IMG/VR virus record: IMGVR_UViG_3300025112_000002
Span: 1 to 30,035 of that record
DNA length: 30,035 nt
Strand: one strand, 5' to 3'
From: a virus
The notes under the pieces are model-generated. The model had not been told where the DNA came from, did no database searches, and was given only the letters and a program-made list of their open reading frames with translations. The stretch's first letter is position 1; the number at the start of each line of letters is the position of its first letter. Shown piece after piece: positions 6,624 through 28,028 of the stretch. The position numbers were made by a program, and so were the translations under genes.

Positions 6624-9205
6624 GTAAAAATATAATGGAACTTATTTTTAGGGTAAAGGCAGATGGTGCAAAAAAGGACATTAAGCAGGTAGGAGATGGC
6701 TTAAAGAAAGTAGGCATAGGTGGTAAGGTTGCTCAAAAGGGCTTAGGGTTTATGAGCAAAGGCTTTAAAGGTGTAGGACTTGCTATGAAAGCAGCCGGTA
6801 TTGGTTTGTTTGTTGGCTTACTTTCACAGCTTACAGGATTGTTTTCACAGAATCAAAAAACAGCAGATACTTTTAGTAGGATAATGATAAAACTACAACC
6901 TGTATTTGATGCTGTTGGTAAAGTGGTGGAAGTATTAGCAGCAGGATTAGAAAAAATGGTAGATTGGATTGTTCAAGCTATAGATTGGATAGGGGGTTTA
7001 ATTGGATTAAGTACCGGCTTTGGAGATTCAGTTAATGCTAGTGCAGATGCCTTAGTAAATCAAAGAAAAAAAGTGCAATTATTAGAAGCTGAATTAGGGT
7101 TGTTACAACTACAATATCAAAGGGAGGCAGAGTTAATGCGACAAATAAGAGATGATGAATCTTTAAGTATTCAAGAAAGAATTGATGCTAATTTTGAATT
7201 AGGTAAAGTATTAGAACAACAATTGCAACACGAAAAAAGTGTTGCTATGGAAAGTTTACGACTAGCTGAATTAGAGCTATCAAGAAATAAAGAGAATATA
7301 GACTTACAAGTTGAATTAACAAACGCCAAGACAAAACTGGCAGAAATAGATGAAAGGATTACAGGTCAAAGGTCAGAGCAATTAACTAATCTAAATTCAT
7401 TAAATAGAGATAGGGCGGCACAACAAAAAGAAGCTGCTACAAAAAGAGAAGAACAATTAAAGAAAGAAGCAGAGATGTTACAAAACTTAATTGATTTGCA
7501 GAATGAAGATATTGAAACAAAAAAGAAAGCCTACAAAACTATTAATGAGCAGTTTGACAATGCTGAAGAAGCGAATAAAGCACAGATAGATGCGTTAGAA
7601 AAAAGAAAAAAAGCCGAATTAGCTGCTTTAGATGCAAGTGTGCAAGGAGCAAAAAAGAATATAGAAGCACAGAAAGGGGTTACAGCAGGAATTGAGGAGG
7701 AGTTAGTAGTATTAGAAGATACTAATAAAAAGAAAAAACAAAGCGTAGAGGATTTAATTCAAGAAGAAATAAAGGCGTTTTCTGCAGGTTCAGATAATTT
7801 TTCTGACTATAATAAAAAGATAGAATCAGTACTGATAGATAAAGAGGAAGAATTATTGAAAAGGAGGCAACGTACTCTAGCAGCAGAGGGGGATGATAGA
7901 ATAACAAGCCTAGAAGAATACGAGAAGTATATGGAAGAATATATTGCCATAACTCAAGATAAATATGATGATTATATAGATGAATTAGGGTATGTAAATA
8001 TTTATAACAGAGATCAACACAACGCAAATATAGGAGTACTAGAAGATTCATTAACCCGAATTAAGAATGCGGCATCACTAACTAATGATGCTATTGTTGC
8101 AACAACAGAAGAACAATTAAATCAATCTATGCAAAGTGCTGCATCTTCGGAGCAAATAATTGCAAACTCTATTAATAAAAGATTAGAAATAGAGAAAAGG
8201 TACGCAAAGGAAATAGAGGCAACAGAACTGAGTTTAGATGATACTACATTAAAGCTACAAGAACAAGCAGATGAAAAACTATTCTTACATTTTGAAACAG
8301 CACAACAAAAAGAAATAAGATTAGCTACAGAAAAATATGCAGAATTACTAGGGGCATCAAAGAATAATGCAGAGATGACTAAAAGAGTTGAGGATGATAA
8401 GGTAAGGGCTTTAGAAAAAATAAACCAGAAATACATAGATGCTCAAAAAGTAGACAAAACTGAGTTTAATAATTACTTAAAGGTACAAGATAAGAACGCA
8501 AGAGAAAAGGAGTTAATGGAGCTAGAAGAACACTTAGCTAAGGTATTAGCTATAGAGGGGCTTAGTGATGAAGAAAAATTATTAGCAGAGGAGGAGTATA
8601 TAAGAAGATGGGATGAACTTAATGACAAACACAATGAAGAAGATTTAGAAAAGAAAAAAGCCAAACAAAGAGAGTTGGAAGATATGGCTTTGCAGGGTAT
8701 GAATCTGATGGTCGCAATAGCAGGAGAAAATGCAAAAAAAGAACTTAGTATCCTAGAAAAGAAATTTAAGAATGGGGAAATGTCAGAGAAGGAATACGTT
8801 AAACAAAAAAATGCAATAGAAAAGAAACAGGCTAAAAAAGAAAGGAATGCAGCTTTAGTACAAATTGCAGTAGATACAGCAAGAGGTATTTCAGCAGCTG
8901 TAAAAGCAGGTGCAGGCGTACCCTTTCCTGCAAATATTGCAGCAATAGCTACAGGGGTTTTATCTGTGTTAAGTGGAATAGCAGCAGCAAAGGCAGCTAT
9001 GAATGAATCCGCAGGTGCAGGTGAAACAGACCTTCCTGGAGATACTGATACTGATACTGGCGAAGATAATACAGGGGCAGTTCCTGGAATTACATTTGGA
9101 GCAGCAGGCTCTGAACAAGCTCCTGTTCAAGCTTATGTTGTAGAAACAGATATTAGTAATGCTCAAGCTTTACAGTCAGAACTTGATTTACAAAGTACCC
9201 TATAA
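6614..9205 (+). CDS. Tape measure protein
   Basis: 863 residues. The N-terminus (ELIFRVKADGAKKDIKQV) has the usual start of siphovirus tape measures. Hydrophobic Gly-rich segments at about 50-80 and 100-135 (GLAMKAAGIGLFVGLLSQLTG) follow, and then about 550 residues of Glu/Lys/Gln-rich coiled coil. A second hydrophobic block near 770-800 (ANIAAIATGVLSVLSGIAAA) precedes an acidic Asp/Thr repeat and the C-terminus. It sets tail length and is probably ejected into the cell with the DNA. At about 1.5 Angstrom per residue it predicts a tail near 130 nm. No peptidase or lysozyme domain is evident. The family call is firm from architecture, length and position. Confidence 0.85.
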   Translation: MAIGKNIMELIFRVKADGAKKDIKQVGDGLKKVGIGGKVAQKGLGFMSKGFKGVGLAMKAAGIGLFVGLLSQLTGLFSQNQKTADTFSRIMIKLQPVFDAVGKVVEVLAAGLEKMVDWIVQAIDWIGGLIGLSTGFGDSVNASADALVNQRKKVQLLEAELGLLQLQYQREAELMRQIRDDESLSIQERIDANFELGKVLEQQLQHEKSVAMESLRLAELELSRNKENIDLQVELTNAKTKLAEIDERITGQRSEQLTNLNSLNRDRAAQQKEAATKREEQLKKEAEMLQNLIDLQNEDIETKKKAYKTINEQFDNAEEANKAQIDALEKRKKAELAALDASVQGAKKNIEAQKGVTAGIEEELVVLEDTNKKKKQSVEDLIQEEIKAFSAGSDNFSDYNKKIESVLIDKEEELLKRRQRTLAAEGDDRITSLEEYEKYMEEYIAITQDKYDDYIDELGYVNIYNRDQHNANIGVLEDSLTRIKNAASLTNDAIVATTEEQLNQSMQSAASSEQIIANSINKRLEIEKRYAKEIEATELSLDDTTLKLQEQADEKLFLHFETAQQKEIRLATEKYAELLGASKNNAEMTKRVEDDKVRALEKINQKYIDAQKVDKTEFNNYLKVQDKNAREKELMELEEHLAKVLAIEGLSDEEKLLAEEEYIRRWDELNDKHNEEDLEKKKAKQRELEDMALQGMNLMVAIAGENAKKELSILEKKFKNGEMSEKEYVKQKNAIEKKQAKKERNAALVQIAVDTARGISAAVKAGAGVPFPANIAAIATGVLSVLSGIAAAKAAMNESAGAGETDLPGDTDTDTGEDNTGAVPGITFGAAGSEQAPVQAYVVETDISNAQALQSELDLQSTL

Positions 9206-9235
9206 ACAAAATATTAAATTTAATATATACTATTA
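9202..9235 (+). promoter_or_regulatory. Late-type phage promoter, copy A (before prohead protease)
   Basis: ATAAAC at 9202-9207, 18 bases, TATACT at 9226-9231, then ATTA. The same arrangement with the same spacing occurs at 10045, 12534 and 29541. The TATACT ends six bases before the ATG at 9238, so a start 6-7 bases downstream would give an almost leaderless message. The upstream hexamer overlaps the tape measure stop codon. Confidence 0.6.
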
Positions 9236-9237
9236 CA

Positions 9238-10041
9238 ATGGCAGAAAAAAAAGTAAAAAGATTAGTAGAACTAATTATAGATGAAGAGTCTGAAAGGTTT
9301 GGAGTAGAAGCGATAAGCCTTGTTGAATTTCCTGCAATCGAAGAAAACTGGGTGTTCTTCAATAAAGACAATTTCCTATCCTTAGCAAAATTAGATGAAG
9401 AAAAGAAAACTCTTGTAGGAGCTGTGCTTATTCCTGAGAAAGAGATACCTAGATATGACCAAGAACTTGATGAGGAGTATGTAGTTTACTTTAGTAAAGA
9501 AACTATTAAAAAGGCACAGGAGCTATTTATGGTTAATCTAAGAAACAATAATGCTACCTATGAACACAAAGTACCAATAGATGGTTTAAGCGTTGTAGAG
9601 AGCTGGATTAAAGAAGATGAAAAATATGACAAGTCCTCACAATTTGGATTTGAGAAAATGCCTATTGGAACGTGGTTTGTGAAAATGAAAATTTCTAATA
9701 ACGATGAGATGTGGGAAAAAGTAAAGAATAAAGAAGTAAGAGGATTTAGTATAGAGGGGTACTTTACTGATGTTTTAATTGAGGCTTCTAAAAAGAAGAA
9801 GTATAAAAAGAAATACACTAAAGAAGATATATTGTCTGATGAAGATTTATTAGACAGAATTAGAATGATTATAACTCAGGATGAAACAGACCAGTTTGAG
9901 TTAATGAAAGAATACATTACGAAAAAGGCTTTATCAAAATATCCTTGGAAACAATGTATCGCTGATATGAAGAAAAAGTACGGAAAAGAATCTGCTGCTA
10001 AAATCTGTTCAGCTATAAAAAGTGGCACTGTTAGAAGGTAG
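9238..10041 (+). CDS. Prohead protease, XkdF-like (serine protease)
   Basis: 267 residues. It resembles the XkdF-type putative phage serine proteases (peptidase S78-like) that cut the scaffold during capsid maturation. Visible catalytic candidates are His110 in NATYEHKVP and Ser171 in VRGFSIEGYF, the usual spacing and context for this family. The N-terminal region (RLVELIIDEESERFGVEAIS) is the typical lead-in. After a Lys-rich linker (185-195), the last 40 residues hold YPWKQCIADMKKKYG and AAKICSAIK, a short Cys-containing tail motif also seen at the ends of other phage head proteins. It sits directly upstream of scaffold and capsid genes, as expected, and has its own late-type promoter. Confidence 0.8.
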   Translation: MAEKKVKRLVELIIDEESERFGVEAISLVEFPAIEENWVFFNKDNFLSLAKLDEEKKTLVGAVLIPEKEIPRYDQELDEEYVVYFSKETIKKAQELFMVNLRNNNATYEHKVPIDGLSVVESWIKEDEKYDKSSQFGFEKMPIGTWFVKMKISNNDEMWEKVKNKEVRGFSIEGYFTDVLIEASKKKKYKKKYTKEDILSDEDLLDRIRMIITQDETDQFELMKEYITKKALSKYPWKQCIADMKKKYGKESAAKICSAIKSGTVRR

Positions 10042-10044
10042 CCT

Positions 10045-10078
10045 GTAAACAATATTAAATTAATTATATATACTTATA
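10045..10078 (+). promoter_or_regulatory. Late-type phage promoter, copy B (before scaffold/capsid genes)
   Basis: GTAAAC at 10045-10050, 18 bases, TATACT at 10069-10074. The spacing matches the other three copies. The ATG at 10092 lies 17 bases beyond TATACT, leaving a leader of about 10 bases. The downstream genes are scaffold and major capsid, which need strong late expression. Confidence 0.6.
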
Positions 10079-10091
10079 AAAATACTATACA

Positions 10092-10745
10092 ATGAAAGAC
10101 ACGTTAGAAAAAATCAAAACTTTATTGTCTATTGATAATAAAGAATCTAAAGAAGTTAAAATGTATGCTGAAATGATATTAGATGATGGCAGAGTTGTAG
10201 CTACTGAGGATGAACAATTTATGATAGGCTCTGAAGTTTTTGTAGTTAATGATGATGGAGAAGCTAGTTCTTTATCAGCAGGAACTTATAAAATGGAAGA
10301 TGGGGCTGAAATGACTATTGATGACAATGGTAAAGTTTTAGACTTAGGAGAAGAAAAAGAAGCTGAGGATGTAGAAGCTGAAGAAGAAGATAAAGAAGAA
10401 ATGGCAGAAGAAGCAGATGTTGCTGATTGGAAAGGAATGGAAATTAGAATTAAAAACCTTGAAGATGCTGTAGCTGATTTAAAAGCAGACAAAGAAAGTA
10501 TGTCTGTAGAAACTGAAGAAACAGTTGAAGAAGAAGTTGTAGAAGAAAAAGTAGAGATGTCTAAAGATATGGTTACTAGCTTAGTAGAAGAAATAGAACA
10601 CTTAAAAACTAAGTTATCAGAAATGGAAAATACACCAGGAGCTGAGGGTTTTAATCACAATCCTGAAATGAAAACTAAATCAGATAAAGTTGATTTAGCT
10701 AAAATGTCAATTAATGACAGAGTTAAATATTTAATAAATAATTAG
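10092..10745 (+). CDS. Capsid scaffolding protein (acidic)
   Basis: 217 residues, strongly acidic. An N-terminal helix is followed by a beta-rich module (YAEMILDDGRVVATEDEQ, IGSEVFVVNDDGE, SLSAGTYKMEDGAEMTIDDN). A Glu/Ala-rich segment with coiled-coil character and a C-terminal basic tail (KTKSDKVDLAKMSINDRVKY) follow. Scaffolds are typically helical and acidic with a basic C-terminus that binds the capsid protein, and they are cleaved by the protease encoded just upstream. Placed between protease and capsid gene, it fits that job. The beta module is also found in head proteins of related phages, so a role as an internal or decoration protein is possible. Confidence 0.65.
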   Translation: MKDTLEKIKTLLSIDNKESKEVKMYAEMILDDGRVVATEDEQFMIGSEVFVVNDDGEASSLSAGTYKMEDGAEMTIDDNGKVLDLGEEKEAEDVEAEEEDKEEMAEEADVADWKGMEIRIKNLEDAVADLKADKESMSVETEETVEEEVVEEKVEMSKDMVTSLVEEIEHLKTKLSEMENTPGAEGFNHNPEMKTKSDKVDLAKMSINDRVKYLINN

Positions 10746-10748
10746 AAA

Positions 10749-11756
10749 ATGAAAAAAGATAATAAAAACCAAATTATGAAATTGGCTAACAACAAACGCT
10801 ACGAGTTTGATATTACTGTAAATGGTGATACTTACGCAGGTGTTCATAGTTTGCCGTATGTAACTGCTGCGTTAAGAAGTCCTGACACAGTTGCTAAAGG
10901 ATATGTAAGGACTATAGATGGATTAACTAAGTCTGCTGTAATAAATAATATTGCTTCAAGCAATCCTATTGTTGCTGCTGCTTGTGGGTTTTCAAGTGAA
11001 GACACTACTTCTACTTCAGAGCAAGTTCTTTCTTTAACTGACCTAAAAGTAAACGAGGAAATTTGCCGAGGCACAATCTTCCCTACTTGGATGGGGCAAG
11101 GAATGGATAGAAACGGAAACTTACCACAAAACTTTTCTGATTTCTTATTAGGAGTAATTGCTTCTAAAGCTGCTGCTCAATTAGAGATTGGTATATGGCA
11201 GGGAACTTCTCCTTTTGGAACTGGATTCTTATCAGATGATGGAACTCAAGATGAAACAGGAGCAGATGCAAGTGCTTGTAAAGACTTCACAGAAGTTGAT
11301 TTTGCTGATGCCTTAGCAGCCTCAGATATTCTTACAGATATGGCTTCTATATACAATGCTGCTGCAAGTGATATATCAGGAATATTAACAAAACCAGGAG
11401 TTGGATTCTATATGAATAACAAGACTTATGGTTTTTATATTCAAGCATTAGCCGCTGCAGGTTCAAATCAAGGACAGGTTTCAGGAGCAGGGTTTAATTT
11501 GAATGGAGATAATATGACTTACTTCGGATTCCCTATTTATAGATGTCCTGGAATGTTCAACGATACTATCCTTTTCACTTATCCTGAAAACTTAGTATTC
11601 GGAACAAACTTAGCAACGGACTGGACTGAAGCAAGATTAATTCCAACGTATGAATACGATGGTTCTGATAACGTAAGAGTTACTATGAACTTTGCTGTAG
11701 GTGTACAGACTGCTGTAGCTACAGATGGTGTTTACGGAAGTACTGTTTGGACATAG
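10749..11756 (+). CDS. Major capsid protein (HK97-fold expected)
   Basis: 335 residues following protease and scaffold, with a strong terminator after it. The sequence has a long N-terminal region, a helix-rich centre (FLLGVIASKAAAQLEIGIWQ), and a C-terminal part with FGFPIYRCPGM, NLVFGTNLATDWTEARLIP and VRVTMNFAVGVQTA. This is the pattern of HK97-type capsid proteins from Bacteroidota phages (a bound domain with 'NLVFGTD'-like and final beta strands). No long delta domain of the HK97 kind is separate because the scaffold is its own gene. The start at 10749 is four bases after the scaffold stop. Confidence 0.8.
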   Translation: MKKDNKNQIMKLANNKRYEFDITVNGDTYAGVHSLPYVTAALRSPDTVAKGYVRTIDGLTKSAVINNIASSNPIVAAACGFSSEDTTSTSEQVLSLTDLKVNEEICRGTIFPTWMGQGMDRNGNLPQNFSDFLLGVIASKAAAQLEIGIWQGTSPFGTGFLSDDGTQDETGADASACKDFTEVDFADALAASDILTDMASIYNAAASDISGILTKPGVGFYMNNKTYGFYIQALAAAGSNQGQVSGAGFNLNGDNMTYFGFPIYRCPGMFNDTILFTYPENLVFGTNLATDWTEARLIPTYEYDGSDNVRVTMNFAVGVQTAVATDGVYGSTVWT

Positions 11757-16011: not shown

Positions 16012-16134
16012 ATGCAAACAAAACAAAAGGAAAAACAAAGGAAAAATAACGAACAAAAATTAAAAAAATATTTAGATAGTTATGGCAAATCAAAGACTGA
16101 CAGACAAAACAGAACTAGCAGAACAGGCAGGTAG
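16012..16134 (+). CDS. Possible small Lys/Gln-rich protein overlapping the next gene
   Basis: 40 residues, extremely Lys/Gln/Asn/Arg-rich, with a short helix (NNEQKLKKYLDSYGKSK). It begins three bases after the connector stop and overlaps the next gene's start by 53 bases in another frame. The similar placement of tiny basic ORFs after connectors in related phages makes it plausible. The long overlap and biased composition leave it uncertain. Confidence 0.3.
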   Translation: MQTKQKEKQRKNNEQKLKKYLDSYGKSKTDRQNRTSRTGR

Positions 16135-16621
16135 TGGGGATTTAATAATGCTCGTTGATGTAAATGACACCACAGGTAGCGCAGCAGGAACAAGTAAGAA
16201 GCAAGACTTTAAATACTTAATGCAAACAGATAAATTTTCATTAAGCAACGCTGAGGTATTAGCTTTAGATAGCACACCTAAAACTCTAATAGGTGCTTTA
16301 AGTGGTTATATGCCAACGATATTTAATGTTACTGTATTATGTACTTATGCTTCATCAACAGAAAGTTCAAGGAAAGATATGATATTTGGATTTGATGAAT
16401 CTGTTGATACTGAATATTGGGCGTATATAGAATCTATGATGGATAGTGAAACTTCAGACAATTCTTATGTAGCAGGAGCAAGCTCTCGAGTAATTAAAAC
16501 AGGGGTTTGTTCATCTTCTCTACTAAATAAACCTTTTAAAGTATGGGCAGAGGGAACAGGTTTTAATGGTGGTTGGAGTTGTGATATTTATGTAACCTAT
16601 TGTTATACAAAAGTATTATAA
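16082..16621 (+). CDS. Probable tail appendage / fibre-like protein
   Basis: 179 residues. The N-terminal 40 residues (RLTDKTELAEQAGSGDLIML VDVNDTTG, then GTSKKQDFKYL) resemble the head-fibre or tail-fibre attachment segment common to Bacteroidota phages, which is joined to variable C-terminal domains. The rest is beta-rich with aromatic residues and ends WSCDIYVTYCYTKVL, as a small receptor-binding or decoration domain would. There is no signal peptide. It ends two bases before the first exported protein gene and closes the virion block. The appendage role is inferred. Confidence 0.45.
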   Translation: MANQRLTDKTELAEQAGSGDLIMLVDVNDTTGSAAGTSKKQDFKYLMQTDKFSLSNAEVLALDSTPKTLIGALSGYMPTIFNVTVLCTYASSTESSRKDMIFGFDESVDTEYWAYIESMMDSETSDNSYVAGASSRVIKTGVCSSSLLNKPFKVWAEGTGFNGGWSCDIYVTYCYTKVL

Positions 16622-16622
16622 A

Positions 16623-17654
16623 ATGAAGATAACAGAAAAACCAATATATTTTTTTTTAATAGTTTTTATTCTAGGAATAGGAACTTGTAATGCGCAATTT
16701 TTTAAGTATGCTACTTTCTATTCATCAGGAAGTATTAATACAAGTATGATTGAAAATCAAGACTATATAGCTATAAACAAAGGTTATGAAGAAACAACTC
16801 AAATAAATCCTTATGACTACAACTTCACAATCGGAATCCGTAAAATTGCCCGTTTCAATTACGAACAAAAGCTCACGACTTGGTACTATGGTAATGAAAA
16901 AAGTGTTGGAGATAATACTACCATTGGTAATAATAATGGTTGGGAGTATTTGCTTAATTATTCTTTTATTCGTAATCGTTCTGAAACATTTACTAATAGA
17001 GATTTTTGGCTTAGGTACTTAGGTAATAGATGTGTTACTAAAATACAAGTAAAAAATGATGAACGTAGAAACTTAGAATACATATCTTTTGATACAAGGT
17101 TTAGAATTAATAAAGGAGCTTTTGATTTCACTATTGGAGCAGTTGGTAGGAATCATCCTGTCTACGGAATAACTCCTATTGAAGATTTTTGGGTAAGTGG
17201 AGAGAGTTCATTCCAAGAATTAGCAGAAGATTTTGGCTATTCAACTCAATTTGTACAAGGTCAATGGCACTGGTTTAATGATGATGAATTAATAGCAACT
17301 TCAAATGATGAGTTTTTTAAGCACTATTTTGGTTCAGCTATAGGTCAGTATAACCAAGAGCAATTAAACGCCTTAGGTAACGTTACAGAGCTTTCTGTGG
17401 CTATTGGTACAGCTTACTATTACTATAGTGATAAGTATTGGATTCACGGATGGCTAAATGTCATGCCTTTTCATTATGGATTAGATGATTATTCTTACAA
17501 CTATGAGGGAGTTTCTACGGATGTTGATTTTGGACTGGTTGCAGGATGGAGAATTACAAAGAATTTAGGTGTATTTGTAGAGGGTACTTATTTAGAATAC
17601 TGGGAAAAGCCTGTGCAGGAGTTCAAATTTGGTTTTAATTATTTAATATTTTAG
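16623..17654 (+). CDS. Phage-encoded outer-membrane beta-barrel-like protein
   Basis: 343 residues. An N-terminal signal peptide (hydrophobic FFLIVFILGIG, then CNAQ) has a probable cut after residue 24 or 25. Cys22 does not have a good lipobox because Thr precedes it. The mature chain has no hydrophobic helices but many alternating aromatic strands (LSVAIGTAYYYYSDKYWIHG, then DVDFGLVAGWRITKNLGVFV) and ends in FGFNYLIF. A terminal Phe in a last aromatic strand is the classic signal for outer-membrane insertion by the BAM machine. I infer a barrel of about ten or more strands. It opens the exported block, so it may alter the host surface, for example in exclusion of other phages or in lysis. 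A role in the virion cannot be ruled out. Confidence 0.55.
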   Translation: MKITEKPIYFFLIVFILGIGTCNAQFFKYATFYSSGSINTSMIENQDYIAINKGYEETTQINPYDYNFTIGIRKIARFNYEQKLTTWYYGNEKSVGDNTTIGNNNGWEYLLNYSFIRNRSETFTNRDFWLRYLGNRCVTKIQVKNDERRNLEYISFDTRFRINKGAFDFTIGAVGRNHPVYGITPIEDFWVSGESSFQELAEDFGYSTQFVQGQWHWFNDDELIATSNDEFFKHYFGSAIGQYNQEQLNALGNVTELSVAIGTAYYYYSDKYWIHGWLNVMPFHYGLDDYSYNYEGVSTDVDFGLVAGWRITKNLGVFVEGTYLEYWEKPVQEFKFGFNYLIF

Positions 17655-17655
17655 T

Positions 17656-18129
17656 ATGAAAAAATTAATATTATTATTATTTGTTTTTAGTTATGGATTT
17701 AGTCAGACGAATTGTGAATTATGCGTTGAGCAAAACGGATTCTATTGTGGAGATGATGAGGGTAATTGGACTCAGTATTCTCCACTTGGTTGTGTACCTA
17801 ATGGTCTTAATAATCTCTTATATCTTAACGATGGTTGGTTAGATTGTGTAGATGGATCAGATGAAGATGGTGCAGTACCTACAACTTTAGCAGACTGTGA
17901 GCAGTATGTAGTGCCTTGTGATACTGTATATATCAATGTAGTAGACACTTTATATGTTACTGAATACCTTGACTGTGAATCAGGTTTACCTTGTGGAAAT
18001 ACAGCTATTTTAGAGCTACTGCAAAAAACAAAAAACCAAAATAAAATATATAATCTAAAAGGACAGGAGATATACAGGAGAGAAAATGTATACATAGAAG
18101 ATGGGAAAATTAACTTTAAATTAAAATAA
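17656..18129 (+). CDS. Secreted Cys-rich protein with LDL-receptor-A-like motif and possible T9SS tail
   Basis: 157 residues. Signal peptide at 1-17 (KKLILLLFVFSYGFSQ). The mature part has nine Cys (20, 23, 31, 46, 64, 81, 88, 107, 113). Residues 29-71 (FYC, then LGCVP, then NDGWLDCVDGSDED) follow the calcium-binding LDL-receptor class A pattern closely at its acidic end. The last 28 residues (KIYNLKGQEIYRRENVYIED, then GKINFKLK) resemble the terminal strands of type IX secretion sorting domains, though such domains are normally 70-80 residues long. It lies one base after the barrel gene and before small membrane proteins. Exported, disulphide-bonded and possibly surface-displayed. Function unknown. 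Confidence 0.6.
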   Translation: MKKLILLLFVFSYGFSQTNCELCVEQNGFYCGDDEGNWTQYSPLGCVPNGLNNLLYLNDGWLDCVDGSDEDGAVPTTLADCEQYVVPCDTVYINVVDTLYVTEYLDCESGLPCGNTAILELLQKTKNQNKIYNLKGQEIYRRENVYIEDGKINFKLK

Positions 18130-18132
18130 AAA

Positions 18133-18318
18133 ATGAAAGAATTAATCTTAAAATTTATTAAATCAAGAAAGTTTTGGTACGGGTTTGTAACTGTTATGCT
18201 GATATTATTTTCAGATAGCTTTGGAATAAGCTCTACTAAAATGAATACTTTAGTAATAGTTACTGTAGCTTTAATAATTGGTCAGGGTATTGCTGACAAA
18301 GGGTGTAATAAATGTTAA
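18133..18318 (+). CDS. Small two-TM membrane protein, possible holin
   Basis: 61 residues. A basic N-terminus (KELILKFIKSRKFW), a hydrophobic segment at about 15-28, a short polar loop (DSFGISSTKMN) and a second at about 39-53 (LVIVTVALIIGQGIA), ending in CNKC. The size and two-helix form fit small holins or holin-like accessory proteins, and it is two genes upstream of the peptidase region. The later 3-TM holin gene is the better holin candidate, so this may be a partner or antiholin. Confidence 0.5.
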   Translation: MKELILKFIKSRKFWYGFVTVMLILFSDSFGISSTKMNTLVIVTVALIIGQGIADKGCNKC

Positions 18319-18321
18319 ACT

Positions 18322-18612
18322 ATGGCAACAGAGGTATCTGAAAATAGCAAGTTTACCCTAAGCCTTAAAAGTATTGGTATACTTTTAACAATGGTTGCTA
18401 CCATAATAGGTATGTATTGGTCATTAAGTATGGAAATTCAAGAAGCTAAAGAACTACCTAAAGTAGAGATTCCTGACCCTGAAATAACAAGACAGGAATT
18501 AGATTTAAAATTAGAGCTTATTAGTACAACTGTAATGAGTAATGCAGAGAAATTAGGAAAAATAGAAACGCAGGTAGAGAAAATAGAGGAGAGAGTATAC
18601 GAGCTTAAATGA
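18322..18612 (+). CDS. N-terminal anchored coiled-coil protein (spanin- or holin-accessory-like)
   Basis: 96 residues. A cytoplasmic N-terminus is followed by one membrane helix at about 16-34 (IGILLTMVATIIGMYWSLSM). A charged helix then runs from about 50 to the end with heptads (LDLKLELISTTVMSNAEKL, then KIETQVEKIEERVYEL). The topology places the coiled coil in the periplasm, as in inner-membrane spanins, and the size is right. It overlaps the thioredoxin-like gene by four bases (ATGA). No separate outer-membrane spanin lipoprotein is seen nearby. Confidence 0.45.
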   Translation: MATEVSENSKFTLSLKSIGILLTMVATIIGMYWSLSMEIQEAKELPKVEIPDPEITRQELDLKLELISTTVMSNAEKLGKIETQVEKIEERVYELK

Positions 18613-18986
18613 GATACCTTTTATATATATTATTGTGGGTAATACCTTATCAATGTTTGAGCCAATCGCTTATAACAAATACTGAATTAACAAAGTATCA
18701 GCAGTCCAATGAACCTCTAGTTATTGAGTTTTGGGCAGATTGGAACGACAGTAACAAATGTCAATTCTTAGGCAATCTTAAAGATTGTAGGATGTACAGA
18801 ATATGTATTGAGGACTATCCTGATTTGGCAGAATCTTACAAGATTAAAGTATTACCTACGATAATAGTTTTCAACAAAAAAGAAATAATAAAGACTTGGA
18901 AAGGAGATTTATTATTCAGGTTAAATGTTGATAAACAAGAAATTCAAGCTGTAGTAGACAGCATAATAATATCTAAATTTAGATAA
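18609..18986 (+). CDS. Exported thioredoxin-fold protein lacking the CXXC pair
   Basis: 125 residues. Signal peptide about 1-18 (YLLYILLWVIPYQCLSQ). The body follows the thioredoxin pattern: PLVIEFWADW at 36-45 where thioredoxins have FWA-x-WCGPC, then a helix, a second strand, and VLPTIIVF with the cis-proline at Pro83, followed by EIIKTWKGD. The active-site cysteines are replaced (W45-N46-D47-S48-N49-K50-C51), leaving Cys51, Cys60 and Cys66. Oxidoreductase activity of the normal kind is therefore unlikely; a binding or monothiol role is possible. It is embedded in the lysis block, overlapping both neighbours (ATGA upstream, TAATG downstream). Confidence 0.65.
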   Translation: MRYLLYILLWVIPYQCLSQSLITNTELTKYQQSNEPLVIEFWADWNDSNKCQFLGNLKDCRMYRICIEDYPDLAESYKIKVLPTIIVFNKKEIIKTWKGDLLFRLNVDKQEIQAVVDSIIISKFR

Positions 18987-19453
18987 TGATACTTTCAAAG
19001 AACTTTTCGCTAAATGAATTTACTAAAAGTGTATCAGCAATTAGAGGTGGAATAGAAAATAGCCCTACTTCTGAGCATATTAGGAACATACAACTATTAG
19101 TTAAATACGTTCTACAGCCACTTAGAGAGGCTCTAAGGAGTCCAATTAGGATCACTAGTGGTTATAGATCAGAAGCATTAAACAAGCTAATTAAAGGCTC
19201 TAAACGAAGCCAACATTGTAAAGGACAGGCATCAGACATACAATTTAAGGTAGATGGTGTGATGGATAACAAGGTTATTTGGGATAAGGTTATAGAATTA
19301 GGGTTACCTTTTGACCAAATGATTAATGAGTTTGAGTATTCTTGGATTCATATTAGTTACAACCACGAGCATAACAGAAAAAGTTTACTTGAAGCCTATA
19401 AAGAAAATGGAAGGACAAAATACAAGTTTCACAAAATAGAAAAAGGGATATGA
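18986..19453 (+). CDS. Endolysin, peptidase M15-type
   Basis: 155 residues, with no signal peptide. Motifs of zinc D-Ala/L-Ala-type carboxypeptidases of the M15 family (Peptidase_M15_3-like) are visible: ITSGYRSEALN at 56-66, SQHCKGQASDI with His77 and Asp84, and WIHISY with His122 as the third ligand. Glu115 in DQMINEFE is the likely catalytic base. It would cut peptide cross-links of peptidoglycan. Because it is cytoplasmic it needs a holin, encoded by the next gene, which overlaps it by four bases. Length is typical for single-domain phage endolysins of this type. Confidence 0.85.
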   Translation: MILSKNFSLNEFTKSVSAIRGGIENSPTSEHIRNIQLLVKYVLQPLREALRSPIRITSGYRSEALNKLIKGSKRSQHCKGQASDIQFKVDGVMDNKVIWDKVIELGLPFDQMINEFEYSWIHISYNHEHNRKSLLEAYKENGRTKYKFHKIEKGI

Positions 19454-19842
19454 AATTACTAAAAACACTATTCGGAGATGGAGCAAGTAAGCTAGTAGAG
19501 TCTGTAGGGGGTGTATTAGACAATCTAAGCACGTCTAAGGAAGAAAAGCTAGAAGCTAAAAGAAAGATAAAGGAGTTAATGGTAAATCATCAGGTAGAAG
19601 TAGAAAAGAATGTTACAGCAAGATGGCAATCAGATATGAATAGTGATAGTTGGTTGTCTAAAAACGTAAGACCACTTGTGTTAGTATTTACTATTGCTTG
19701 TACTATGCTACTTGTATTCATAGATAGTGGTAGTATTACCTTTCAAGTAGAAGAAAAATGGACGGATCTACTTCAATTAACGTTGATTACAATTATTGGA
19801 GCATACTTCGGTGGCAGGTCGGTCGAGAAACTTAAAAAATAA
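19450..19842 (+). CDS. Holin, 3-TM (GTA holin-like)
   Basis: 130 residues. The N-terminal third is amphipathic helix (SKEEKLEAKRKIKELMVNHQ). The sequence WLSKNVRPLVLVFTIACTML at about 68-88 and the later LLQLTLITIIGAYFGGRSVE match the conserved parts of the 3-TM holin family described from gene transfer agents and Bacteroidota phages. It would make inner-membrane lesions that let the M15 endolysin reach the wall. The start ATGA overlaps the endolysin stop. Its TAA is followed immediately, in the same frame, by the phosphoesterase reading frame. Confidence 0.75.
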   Translation: MKLLKTLFGDGASKLVESVGGVLDNLSTSKEEKLEAKRKIKELMVNHQVEVEKNVTARWQSDMNSDSWLSKNVRPLVLVFTIACTMLLVFIDSGSITFQVEEKWTDLLQLTLITIIGAYFGGRSVEKLKK

Positions 19843-26238: not shown

Positions 26239-26525
26239 GAAACCATACTAAGGTATATATGACATTCTTTTACTTAGATGAAAGCGATTTTATTGCCTGT
26301 GAAATGTGTAATGCTCAAGGACAAGACATTCATCATATACAAGCCAGAGGATTAGGAGGCTCAAAATGTATGGACTTTGTAGAGAACTTAATTTGCCTTT
26401 GTAGGGATTGCCATAATAGGGCAGAGAGTGATAAAGAATTTAATACCTATTGCAGAATACAACATTTAGAAAACATTAAAAAATATTTATATGAAAATTA
26501 CATTGATAGAAATAAACAATCTTAA
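26235..26525 (+). CDS. HNH endonuclease
   Basis: 96 residues. Zinc-binding pairs C22xxC25 (ACEMC) and C56xxC59 (CRDCH) surround the HNH core: H33-H34 in DIHHIQARGLGG, Asn51 in VENLICLC and His60 in CRDCHNRAE. All catalytic positions look intact. HNH proteins near terminase genes can help packaging-site cutting; those near ParB-like and base-modifying genes may act on or spare modified DNA. It overlaps the ParB-like gene by 35 bases, so all three genes of the cassette are probably co-expressed. Confidence 0.8.
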   Translation: MRNHTKVYMTFFYLDESDFIACEMCNAQGQDIHHIQARGLGGSKCMDFVENLICLCRDCHNRAESDKEFNTYCRIQHLENIKKYLYENYIDRNKQS

Positions 26526-26997
26526 TCCTGCTGAATATAATCCAAGACAAATTACTAAAAAGCAATTTGAGGATTTAAAAGCAAGTATTGATAAATTTGG
26601 ATTGGTTGACCCAATAATTATAAATTCAGATAATACTGTAATTGGTGGTCATCAGCGTTTAAAAGTTTTAAGAGAATTAGGAGCAAAAAAAATACCAACA
26701 GTAAGAGTTAATTTATCAAAGGAAGATGAGAGAGAATTAAATGTAAGACTAAATAAATCAGGTGGTACTTTTGATATGGATATATTAGCAAATGAGTTTG
26801 ATGTAGTAGATTTAAAGGAATGGGGTTTTAAAGATATTGAACTTGGCTTTAATATAGATAAAATACAAGATGATTTATCTGATAAAATAGAATTACAATA
26901 TAAGATAGAAGTAGATGTAACTTCTGAAAAAGAACAAGAACAATTATATAATGATTTAACTAATAAAGGATATATATGCCGAATTTTAACATTATAA
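26491..26997 (+). CDS. ParB-like nuclease-domain protein
   Basis: 168 residues. The N-terminal ParB/Srx-type domain has LNPAEYNPRQITKKQFEDL (11-29), FGLVDPIIIN (36-45) and GGHQRLKVLRELG (52-64), the conserved G-x-H/G-x-x-R nucleotide-binding segment. The C-terminal third is charged helix with no HTH. In phages, stand-alone ParB-like proteins often accompany DNA modification genes, acting as CTP- or phosphate-handling switches or nucleases. Here it is followed, with a 22-base overlap, by the ABC/acetyltransferase gene. Confidence 0.75.
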   Translation: MKITLIEINNLNPAEYNPRQITKKQFEDLKASIDKFGLVDPIIINSDNTVIGGHQRLKVLRELGAKKIPTVRVNLSKEDERELNVRLNKSGGTFDMDILANEFDVVDLKEWGFKDIELGFNIDKIQDDLSDKIELQYKIEVDVTSEKEQEQLYNDLTNKGYICRILTL

Positions 26998-28028
26998 AAG
27001 AAGTTAAGCCTAAAAAGACATTTAGGGTTAGCTCAGTTATGGGTAAATTTGATTTACAAACTGAACATATCAAAGAACAATTTATTGGAGATATAGATTT
27101 AAATGATGATTGGCAAATAGGTTGTATAATTGGAAGTAGTGGTAGTGGAAAGACAACAATAGCAAAAGAGTTATTTCCTGAAAGTTATATAACTAATTTT
27201 AAATATGAATCTGAAACTATATTAGATGATATGCCTAAAGAAAAAAGTGTAGATGAAATTACAAGGACTTTTAATAGTGTAGGATTTTCTTCTCCACCAA
27301 GTTGGCTTAAACCTTATTCAGTATTATCTAATGGACAAAAGATGAGAGTGGATTTAGCAAATGGTTTGTTACAAGATAAAGAGTTAATGGTATTTGATGA
27401 GTTTACAAGTGTAGTAGATAGGAATGTGGCACAAATAGGAAGTTATGCAGTACAAAAGGCTATTAGGAAAACAAAAAGAAAGTTTATAGCTGTAAGTTGT
27501 CATTATGATATTGTGGATTGGCTTTTACCTGATTGGATATTTAATACTGATTCTATGACTTTCCAAGATTTGAGAAAGCAAAAAAAAAATAGACCAGAAA
27601 TTAAATTTGAAATATACCAAACAAGAGATAAATCAGTATGGAGAATGTTTGCTAAACATCATTATTTAAGTCATAGTCATAATAATGCTGCTAATGTTTA
27701 TGTAGCTTTTGTTAATGAGCAGTTAGCAGGATTTATAAGTATATTACATCAGCCTCATCCAAAAGTTAGAAATATAAGGAGGGTGCATAGAGTTGTAGTT
27801 TTACCTGATTATCAAGGTATTGGAGTTGGTATAAGATTATTAGAATATATAGGAAATAAATATATAAATAATAAATATAGATTTACAATAACAACTTCAG
27901 CTCCAAGTTTAATAAACTATTTTAAAAATAGTATAAATTGGATATGTAGAAGATTTGGCAGGAATATAAAACATTTAATTGGAGATAGTTCATCTAGAAT
28001 TACAACTGCCTGGGAATATAAATTATAA
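26976..28028 (+). CDS. ABC-type ATPase fused to a GNAT acetyltransferase (COG2401-like)
   Basis: 350 residues. The N-terminal half is a soluble ABC ATPase: Walker A GSSGSGKT (53-60), signature LSNGQK (117-122), Walker B LMVFDE (137-142) and switch His176 in SCHYD. The insert between Walker A and the signature is short. From about 205 a GNAT domain follows with HHYLSHSHNNAANVYVAFVN (228-247) and acetyl-CoA motif A, VVLPDYQGIGVGIRLLEYIG (274-293). This fusion is the COG2401 type. I link it to DNA base modification because Mu Mom is a GNAT-fold base modifier and related phage cassettes pair such proteins with ParB. Protein or tRNA acylation are alternatives. Confidence 0.75.
   Translation: MPNFNIIKEVKPKKTFRVSSVMGKFDLQTEHIKEQFIGDIDLNDDWQIGCIIGSSGSGKTTIAKELFPESYITNFKYESETILDDMPKEKSVDEITRTFNSVGFSSPPSWLKPYSVLSNGQKMRVDLANGLLQDKELMVFDEFTSVVDRNVAQIGSYAVQKAIRKTKRKFIAVSCHYDIVDWLLPDWIFNTDSMTFQDLRKQKKNRPEIKFEIYQTRDKSVWRMFAKHHYLSHSHNNAANVYVAFVNEQLAGFISILHQPHPKVRNIRRVHRVVVLPDYQGIGVGIRLLEYIGNKYINNKYRFTITTSAPSLINYFKNSINWICRRFGRNIKHLIGDSSSRITTAWEYKL

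Follow-up and report, generated by a model that had tools for sequence, protein, structure and literature searches.

The window analysed here, the full 30,035 bases of an uncultured virus record with structural and lysis genes, contains an open reading frame at 17656..18129 (+) whose product raises a question. What would a phage do with a small, cysteine-rich secreted protein that ends in something resembling a bacterial sorting signal? The 157-residue product begins with the signal peptide MKKLILLLFVFSYGFSQ (residues 1-17, 17656..17706, +; assigned by inspection and ending in FSQ), contains nine cysteines and the segment YLNDGWLDCVDGSDED, and finishes with KIYNLKGQEIYRRENVYIEDGKINFKLK. A preliminary description of this locus had pointed to the signal peptide, the nine cysteines, an acidic segment and a KIYNLKGQEIY-type end, and all of these are present in the reading frame. 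Beyond the signal peptide, the protein consists of a six-cysteine domain, a stalk of variable length and a conserved C-terminal tail.

A conserved family of predicted secreted phage proteins

A single-sequence scan identified at least 68 relatives of the protein in IMG/VR contigs, and profile scans of viral contigs widened the family to 207 members in one scan and 228 in another; tblastn of 50,697 deposited phage records gave zero matches. Our statements about invariance use 62 distinct full-length relatives that came from tblastn without motif selection, because a separate set of 152 N-domain sequences had been chosen with a motif regular expression. All 62 share C20, C23, C31, C46, C64, C81, D59, D63, D69 and E70 in the N-terminal domain, together with Q17 at the end of the signal peptide, C107, C113 and, in the tail, Y132, G136, I139, Y146, I147 and G150. 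Synonymous changes predominate across the family (dN/dS 0.11-0.21), with regional pN/pS values of 0.17 for the N-domain, 0.25 for the tail and 0.40 for the stalk. From the reading frame, its viral relatives and this pattern of substitution, we conclude that the family is real and is kept by purifying selection, and that its conserved features are not the product of chance. The analyses below lead us to describe the protein as a putative secreted, LDL-A-like cargo protein with a short CTD.

An LDL-A-like variant at the N-terminus

The six-cysteine domain occupies residues 18-81 (17707..17898, +) and includes the motif YLNDGWLDCVDGSDE (residues 56-70, 17821..17865, +), in which D59, D63, D69 and E70 are the predicted side-chain ligands of a calcium cage by analogy with LDL-A modules. 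These four residues, invariant among the tblastn relatives, are also found in 152/152 of the regex-selected sequences. The core of an LDL-A module follows the pattern C-I-x3-W-x-C4-D-x3-D-C5-x3-S-D-E. Compact members of the phage family read GCVQTSWINDGWVDCVDASDE and can be aligned to this core without gaps, the exception being C4, which is Asn.

Profile searches place the domain close to LDL-A, although the window protein itself is below the Pfam threshold, with an Ldl_recept_a match at E 0.29 and 11.8 bits against a gathering cut-off of 24.1. Among diverse N-domains of the family, 60 of 93 match Ldl_recept_a at E <= 0.1 (best 2.3e-5), and a family profile compared with PDB sequences ranks the LDL-A repeats of VLDLR at the top (E 0.0026), with LRP1 and glucosidase II beta next. 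An AF2 model of the 62-residue domain of a relative (L067, sharing 66% identity with that of the window), built with 93 sequences, has a pLDDT of 97.7 and a pTM of 0.83. When this model was compared with the PDB by Foldseek, the best single E value was 0.19 and the first unrelated chain appeared at rank 33, the best 32 chains all belonging to proteins known to carry LDL-A modules. VIA-align gave Z scores up to 3.1, with an rmsd of 2.2-3.2 A over 34-42 residues, and LDLR module 5 was among the structures aligned.

Comparison with the LDL-A module (PF00057; LDLR LR5, 1ajj) reveals both shared and divergent features. The D-x3-D-C-x3-S-D-E cage ligands are common to the two, F-x-C and C-V/I-x3-W precede the cage both in LDL-A and in compact family members, and the phage domain is predicted to be, like LDL-A, a small, helix-poor disulfide fold. 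Unlike LDL-A, the phage domain has Asn at the site of cysteine 4 (position 58; Asn in 151/152 sequences), an extra cysteine, C20, upstream of cysteine 1 and a long insertion that separates cysteine 2 from cysteine 3, in addition to its sub-threshold Pfam score. The canonical six-cysteine order, with cysteine 4 ahead of the first cage Asp, is thus not seen. Because of the replaced cysteine, the extra cysteine and the insert, we regard the domain, as judged from its sequence and the model of its relative, as an LDL-A-like variant rather than a member of LDL-A. The predicted disulfide pairs are C23-C46, C31-C64 and C20-C81, and by analogy the cage would bind calcium. The suggestion of an LDL-A-like calcium cage in the preliminary description is upheld as regards the ligands, and the model resembles LDL-A, but the agreement does not extend to cysteine 4 or the Pfam threshold.

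A stalk and a putative short T9SS signal

The stalk (residues 82-113, 17899..17994, +) comprises the CDTVYINVVDTLYVTEY repeat followed by DC..GLPC, and is also found in four cellular proteins (L153, L154, L155 and L070). Its DTIYVE..IDTLYV-like repeats drive the range of lengths among relatives, from 157 to more than 250 residues.

Following the stalk is a putative short T9SS C-terminal signal of 41 residues (117-157, 18004..18126, +), recognised from the alignment of tails, from cellular matches and from the published definition of this class (PMC11969387). It starts at T116/A117, where a T/AI site recalls the sortase motif PT/GI, and contains three recognisable elements. The first, KIYNLKGQEI (18043..18072, +), resembles CTD motif B and includes the invariant Y132 and G136; the second, NVYI (18085..18096, +), resembles motif D and reads GxYI in most relatives; and the third, GKINFKLK (18103..18126, +), resembles motif E. 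In 113/113 phage tails the gap between motifs B and D is 4 and the end is basic, with a basic residue among the last six positions. The first residue of motif D is less constant, being G in 89 of these tails, N in 16 and S in 8, and the window protein (N144) belongs to a clade with Asn, so the absolute conservation of this glycine that characterises short CTDs does not hold for the family.

Short CTDs have been described in Prevotella intermedia, where they are present in 48 of 80 cargo proteins and cleavage has been demonstrated for five (PMC11969387). Those of the seed set extend 40-51 residues from the PT/GI site, and the class has a B-D gap of 1-6, a conserved G, the GxYI motif and, at the C-terminus, a basic residue that is likewise conserved (PMC11969387). 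A short signal is also known from HBP35, in which it sits in the last 22 residues (PMC11285876). The phage tail and the P. intermedia signals both measure about 40-51 residues from a T/[GA]I-like cut site, and both have a Y..xG motif B, a short B-D gap and a basic motif E; the GxYI motif D is present in most phage relatives, with N for G in the clade of the window. The phage protein further has a signal peptide, and its tail runs to the exact C-terminus, at a length within the span of about 40-55 residues by which the class is recognised. P. intermedia belongs to a different bacterial order, and its short CTDs were demonstrated there and not in Flavobacteriales, whereas the phage tail is known by motif; with this proviso, the tail is a putative member of the published class except for the motif D glycine.

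Established CTD models do not capture this tail. TIGR04183 and PF18962 gave no match in the tail of the window protein or in 39 family members, NCBIfam and Pfam returned nothing for phage tails or the closest cellular tails, and a single intermediate cellular tail matched TIGR04183 at E 0.0029, below cut-off. Type A domains are seven-strand beta-sandwiches of about 70-100 residues, a size that the phage tail, at about 41 residues, does not reach. In a profile-profile comparison with 32 canonical CTDs, motif B alone was aligned (probability 45%). When the whole window protein was modelled by AF2 together with 39 relatives, the pLDDT was 44, too poor for judging strands in the tail, and for that reason we leave this model out of our claims about fold.

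Cellular counterparts and a likely host group

Searches with the tail profile located the same arrangement of stalk, DC.TGLPC and tail at the exact end of secreted cellular proteins of Flavobacteriales. These include an LRR protein (L153), two CNY-repeat proteins (L154 and L155) and two further proteins (L070 and L149); for L153, L154, L155 and L070 the E values are 1e-16 to 1e-20. A short-tail profile, A5, which partly contains its own matches, found 22 places in 9 genomes, 10 of these places being seeds; among the 12 non-seed matches, 11 lie at the C-termini of reading frames, including those of M43 peptidases and one canonical CTD. All nine genomes encode SprA, and each has 27-64 Por_Secre_tail matches. 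The preliminary description had likened the tail to T9SS sorting domains, and this likeness finds support in homologues, in that the tail ends cellular Flavobacteriales proteins and resembles the short CTD class; it does not extend to a match with TIGR04183 or PF18962.

The N-domain, too, has cellular counterparts, being found in large surface proteins of four genomes (G007, G033, G051 and G074) with E values down to 1e-23. The protein in G033 carries a canonical CTD at its end (TIGR04183, 5.4e-10), and the N-domain region of that in G074 matches PF00057 unaided. All seven genomes that strongly carry either module fall within one family of 12 genomes among the 296 Flavobacteriales sampled (p about 2e-11). 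A PorU-family T9SS sortase scores over cut-off in 10 of these 12; several of the genomes used are MAGs and may be incomplete. A search for the N-domain in 395 genomes across the phylum, run without a positive control, gave no match. Because both the N-domain and the tail are shared with it, this family of Flavobacteriales is, from sequence comparison, the likely host group of the phage.

In Flavobacteriales repeat proteins of the GCTDPxAxNYNPxATxDDGSC type (L362 and L365, genome G094), LDL-A modules score close to or above the Pfam cut-off, which indicates that surface proteins of bacteria can contain modules of the LDL-A type.

The gene lies in a barrel and lysis cassette

The target gene is part of a tightly spaced group that the preliminary description had overlooked. 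A putative structural gene (16082-16621; phrog_19691, E 0.0065) is followed by a gene for an outer-membrane beta-barrel-like protein with a signal peptide (16623..17654, +; barrel assigned by inspection), which is separated from the target by 1 nt. The target ends 3 nt ahead of a gene for a small holin-like membrane protein (18133..18318, +; phrog_9987 holin, E 0.0011). Next are a protein with an N-terminal TM segment and a coiled coil (18322..18612, +), for which PHROG matches are weak and an inner-spanin-like topology is inferred (TM assignments here are by inspection), and a secreted thioredoxin-fold protein lacking CxxC (18609..18986, +; Pfam Thioredoxin, 2e-6), which has homologues in the cassettes of other phages. 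The group continues, with gaps or overlaps of 1-4 nt, into an M15 peptidase endolysin (18986..19453, +; phrog_894, 1.1e-38) and a 3TM holin (19450..19842, +; phrog_3427, 1.4e-28). The window showed no recognisable lipoprotein outer spanin, and a promoter scan of it returned fewer sites than shuffled sequences.

The barrel gene adjoins the target gene in every viral locus tested. Marine viral contigs contain about 393 relatives of it, and in several phage types it marks an envelope and lysis cassette; tblastn of the 50,697 deposited phage records with the barrel, and with the third cargo described below, gave zero matches. The barrel belongs to no known family and has no relative in the PDB or NCBIfam. 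A role as a PorP/SprF-type partner was considered and is unsupported, these same searches being empty.

At 80 barrel loci, the cargo is LDL-A-like in 32, a protein with a canonical CTD in 7 and of a third type in 12, and at least 15 of the 80, with full flanks, carry no recognised cargo. The TM-coiled-coil and thioredoxin-fold genes lie beside the barrel in nearly all loci, whether cargo is present or absent. Because cargo-free loci have full flanks, we view the barrel, TM-coiled-coil and thioredoxin-fold proteins as a core, and the cargo as a swappable, non-essential partner. One canonical example lies on the phage-like contig L388, which was binned with G122, a genome of Flavobacteriales. 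It is a 994-residue CNY-repeat surface protein (8202-11186, -; TIGR04183, 1.7e-14) whose gene adjoins homologous barrel, TM-coiled-coil and thioredoxin-fold genes. The presence of a canonical CTD protein in this same slot is the strongest argument for the target being T9SS cargo. The third cargo type (L468 7654-8208, L417 7959-8477 and similar) has a signal or TM segment, a YGDGWNGA domain and a short tail reading DLLGREV..GLYIASDG..TRKVYID, and its DSYGDGWNGA domain resembles domains in host surface proteins.

We see an even chance that marine flavophages possess a dedicated cassette for remodelling the exterior of the infected cell by way of host type IX secretion. Such a cassette would comprise the barrel, interchangeable host-mimicking T9SS cargo, the TM-coiled-coil protein and a redox-inactive thioredoxin-fold protein, and the LDL-A-like cargo would be one among at least three swappable versions.

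Thioredoxin-fold proteins of the cassette (18609-18986 in the window; L388 6498-6827, -) retain a VLPT/VVPT cis-proline loop, and the one in the window has WNDSNKC; given that CxxC is absent, they are probably not disulfide catalysts.

Proposed role and alternatives

The anatomy of the protein, its conservation, the recurrence of its two modules in proteins secreted by cells and the linkage to the cassette are the observations from which any role has to be argued. We favour, as rather probable, a model in which the target is a phage-made cargo of the host T9SS that is displayed late on the cell surface. In this model, the signal peptide would take the protein through Sec to the periplasm, and the short C-terminal signal (motifs B, D and E; about 41 residues) would hand it to the T9SS translocon and to PorV/PorU, which would cut near T116/A117 and then anchor the protein on the cell surface. 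What the cell displays would be an LDL-A-like module, held by disulfide bonds and a calcium cage and raised on a stalk rich in beta structure. Among these steps, the sequence lends support to export by Sec, to the caged domain with its disulfides, to a signal of T9SS type and to an operon that includes the barrel and lysis genes. As surface proteins of the host clade contain the domain, the stalk and the tail as modules, the phage would be making an imitation of a host surface protein; and since the gene shares one operon with the barrel, TM-coiled-coil, thioredoxin-fold and lysis genes, its expression is probably late. The purpose is a more tentative matter, and taken alone we rate it at somewhat under an even chance: together with the barrel, the protein may mask or occupy receptors, so that superinfection, and the loss of progeny on debris, would be prevented. 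Llp of phage T5 is the analogue we invoke for masking of the surface and superinfection exclusion.

The same operon structure, with its 1-4 nt spacing into the endolysin and holin genes, also accommodates a role in lysis, in which the barrel, cargo, TM-coiled-coil and periplasmic thioredoxin-fold proteins act jointly to weaken the outer membrane as infection ends. This set would replace a classical outer spanin, consistent with the failure to recognise a lipoprotein outer spanin in the window and with TM-coiled-coil and thioredoxin-fold genes keeping near-constant company with the barrel whether or not cargo is present, and the cargo would act from outside, for instance by capturing calcium or gating the barrel. 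We think this unlikely, as the type and position of the cargo vary on a constant core and some cassettes have none, and the best HMM support for a spanin is only E 0.99. The apparently late, lysis-linked operon speaks in turn against the idea that the cargo serves the infected cell, altering its attachment, aggregation or nutrient capture and not phage adsorption. Surface proteins of the host clade are indeed routinely built from the LDL-A-like domain, the stalk and CNY repeats, but a dying cell would have little time to benefit, and we judge this explanation decidedly unlikely.

Two further explanations dispense with display by the T9SS. If the likeness of the tail to CTDs were due to chance, the tail could be a stabilising beta-hairpin on a periplasmic or otherwise secreted protein, as might be suggested by its position outside the CTD HMMs and by a profile match that is partial. 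Against this, unrelated secreted proteins in T9SS-rich cellular genomes end in the same tail, and another phage has a canonical CTD cargo in the slot, which makes this explanation slightly less probable again than a benefit to the infected cell. Lastly, since the gene lies just downstream of putative structural genes, the protein might be a component of the virion, such as a tail-tip adhesin, with a misleading N-terminus. The invariant end of the signal peptide, the disulfide-rich domain and the fact that the gene is linked to those for the outer-membrane barrel and lysis, not to tail genes, render this very improbable. Surface display as T9SS cargo remains our preferred reading, and is the one taken up below.

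Relation to reported phage-encoded T9SS cargo

The preliminary description regarded export of a phage protein by this route as new, but phage-encoded cargo had already been reported for Cryophage by Bellas et al. in 2020, who found phage proteins with T9SS sorting domains, proposed hijacking of the host T9SS and suggested superinfection exclusion as one role (PMC7468147). The cargo proteins of Cryophage, which have type A domains, are an endoglucanase, a GH39 protein and a PA14 protein (PMC7468147). As in Cryophage, the window, a virus record, encodes a protein with a putative sorting signal, here of the short type by motif, and its probable host family has SprA and a PorU-family sortase. Unlike the Cryophage cargo, the protein of the window joins a short tail to an LDL-A-like module, and is tied to a barrel and lysis cassette conserved across hundreds of marine phage contigs. 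A T9SS sorting domain has also been noted in ORFs of crAss-like phages (PMC6949934); these lie near head genes and have carbohydrate-binding BACON repeats, with no barrel or lysis cassette described (PMC6949934). What is new here is the family with an LDL-A-like module and short tail, an envelope cassette that is conserved while its cargo can be exchanged, and the link to a likely host group.

If our reading is correct, phages of abundant marine bacteria use a secretion system restricted to Bacteroidota to dress infected cells in host-like proteins. The cassette would then offer a system, testable by deletion, for the study of superinfection exclusion or of outer-membrane lysis, both of which are poorly known in this phylum. 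Shared by Flavobacteriales and their phages, the LDL-A-like module would be a case of a fold known above all from animals serving as a part of bacterial and phage surfaces, and modules shared in this way indicate a host family for uncultured phages.

Elsewhere in the window, a gene at 26976-28028 encodes a 350-residue protein that, by eye, resembles an ABC-type ATPase fused with an acetyltransferase-like C-terminal half, and adjoins a gene with a ParB-like nuclease domain at 26491-26997.
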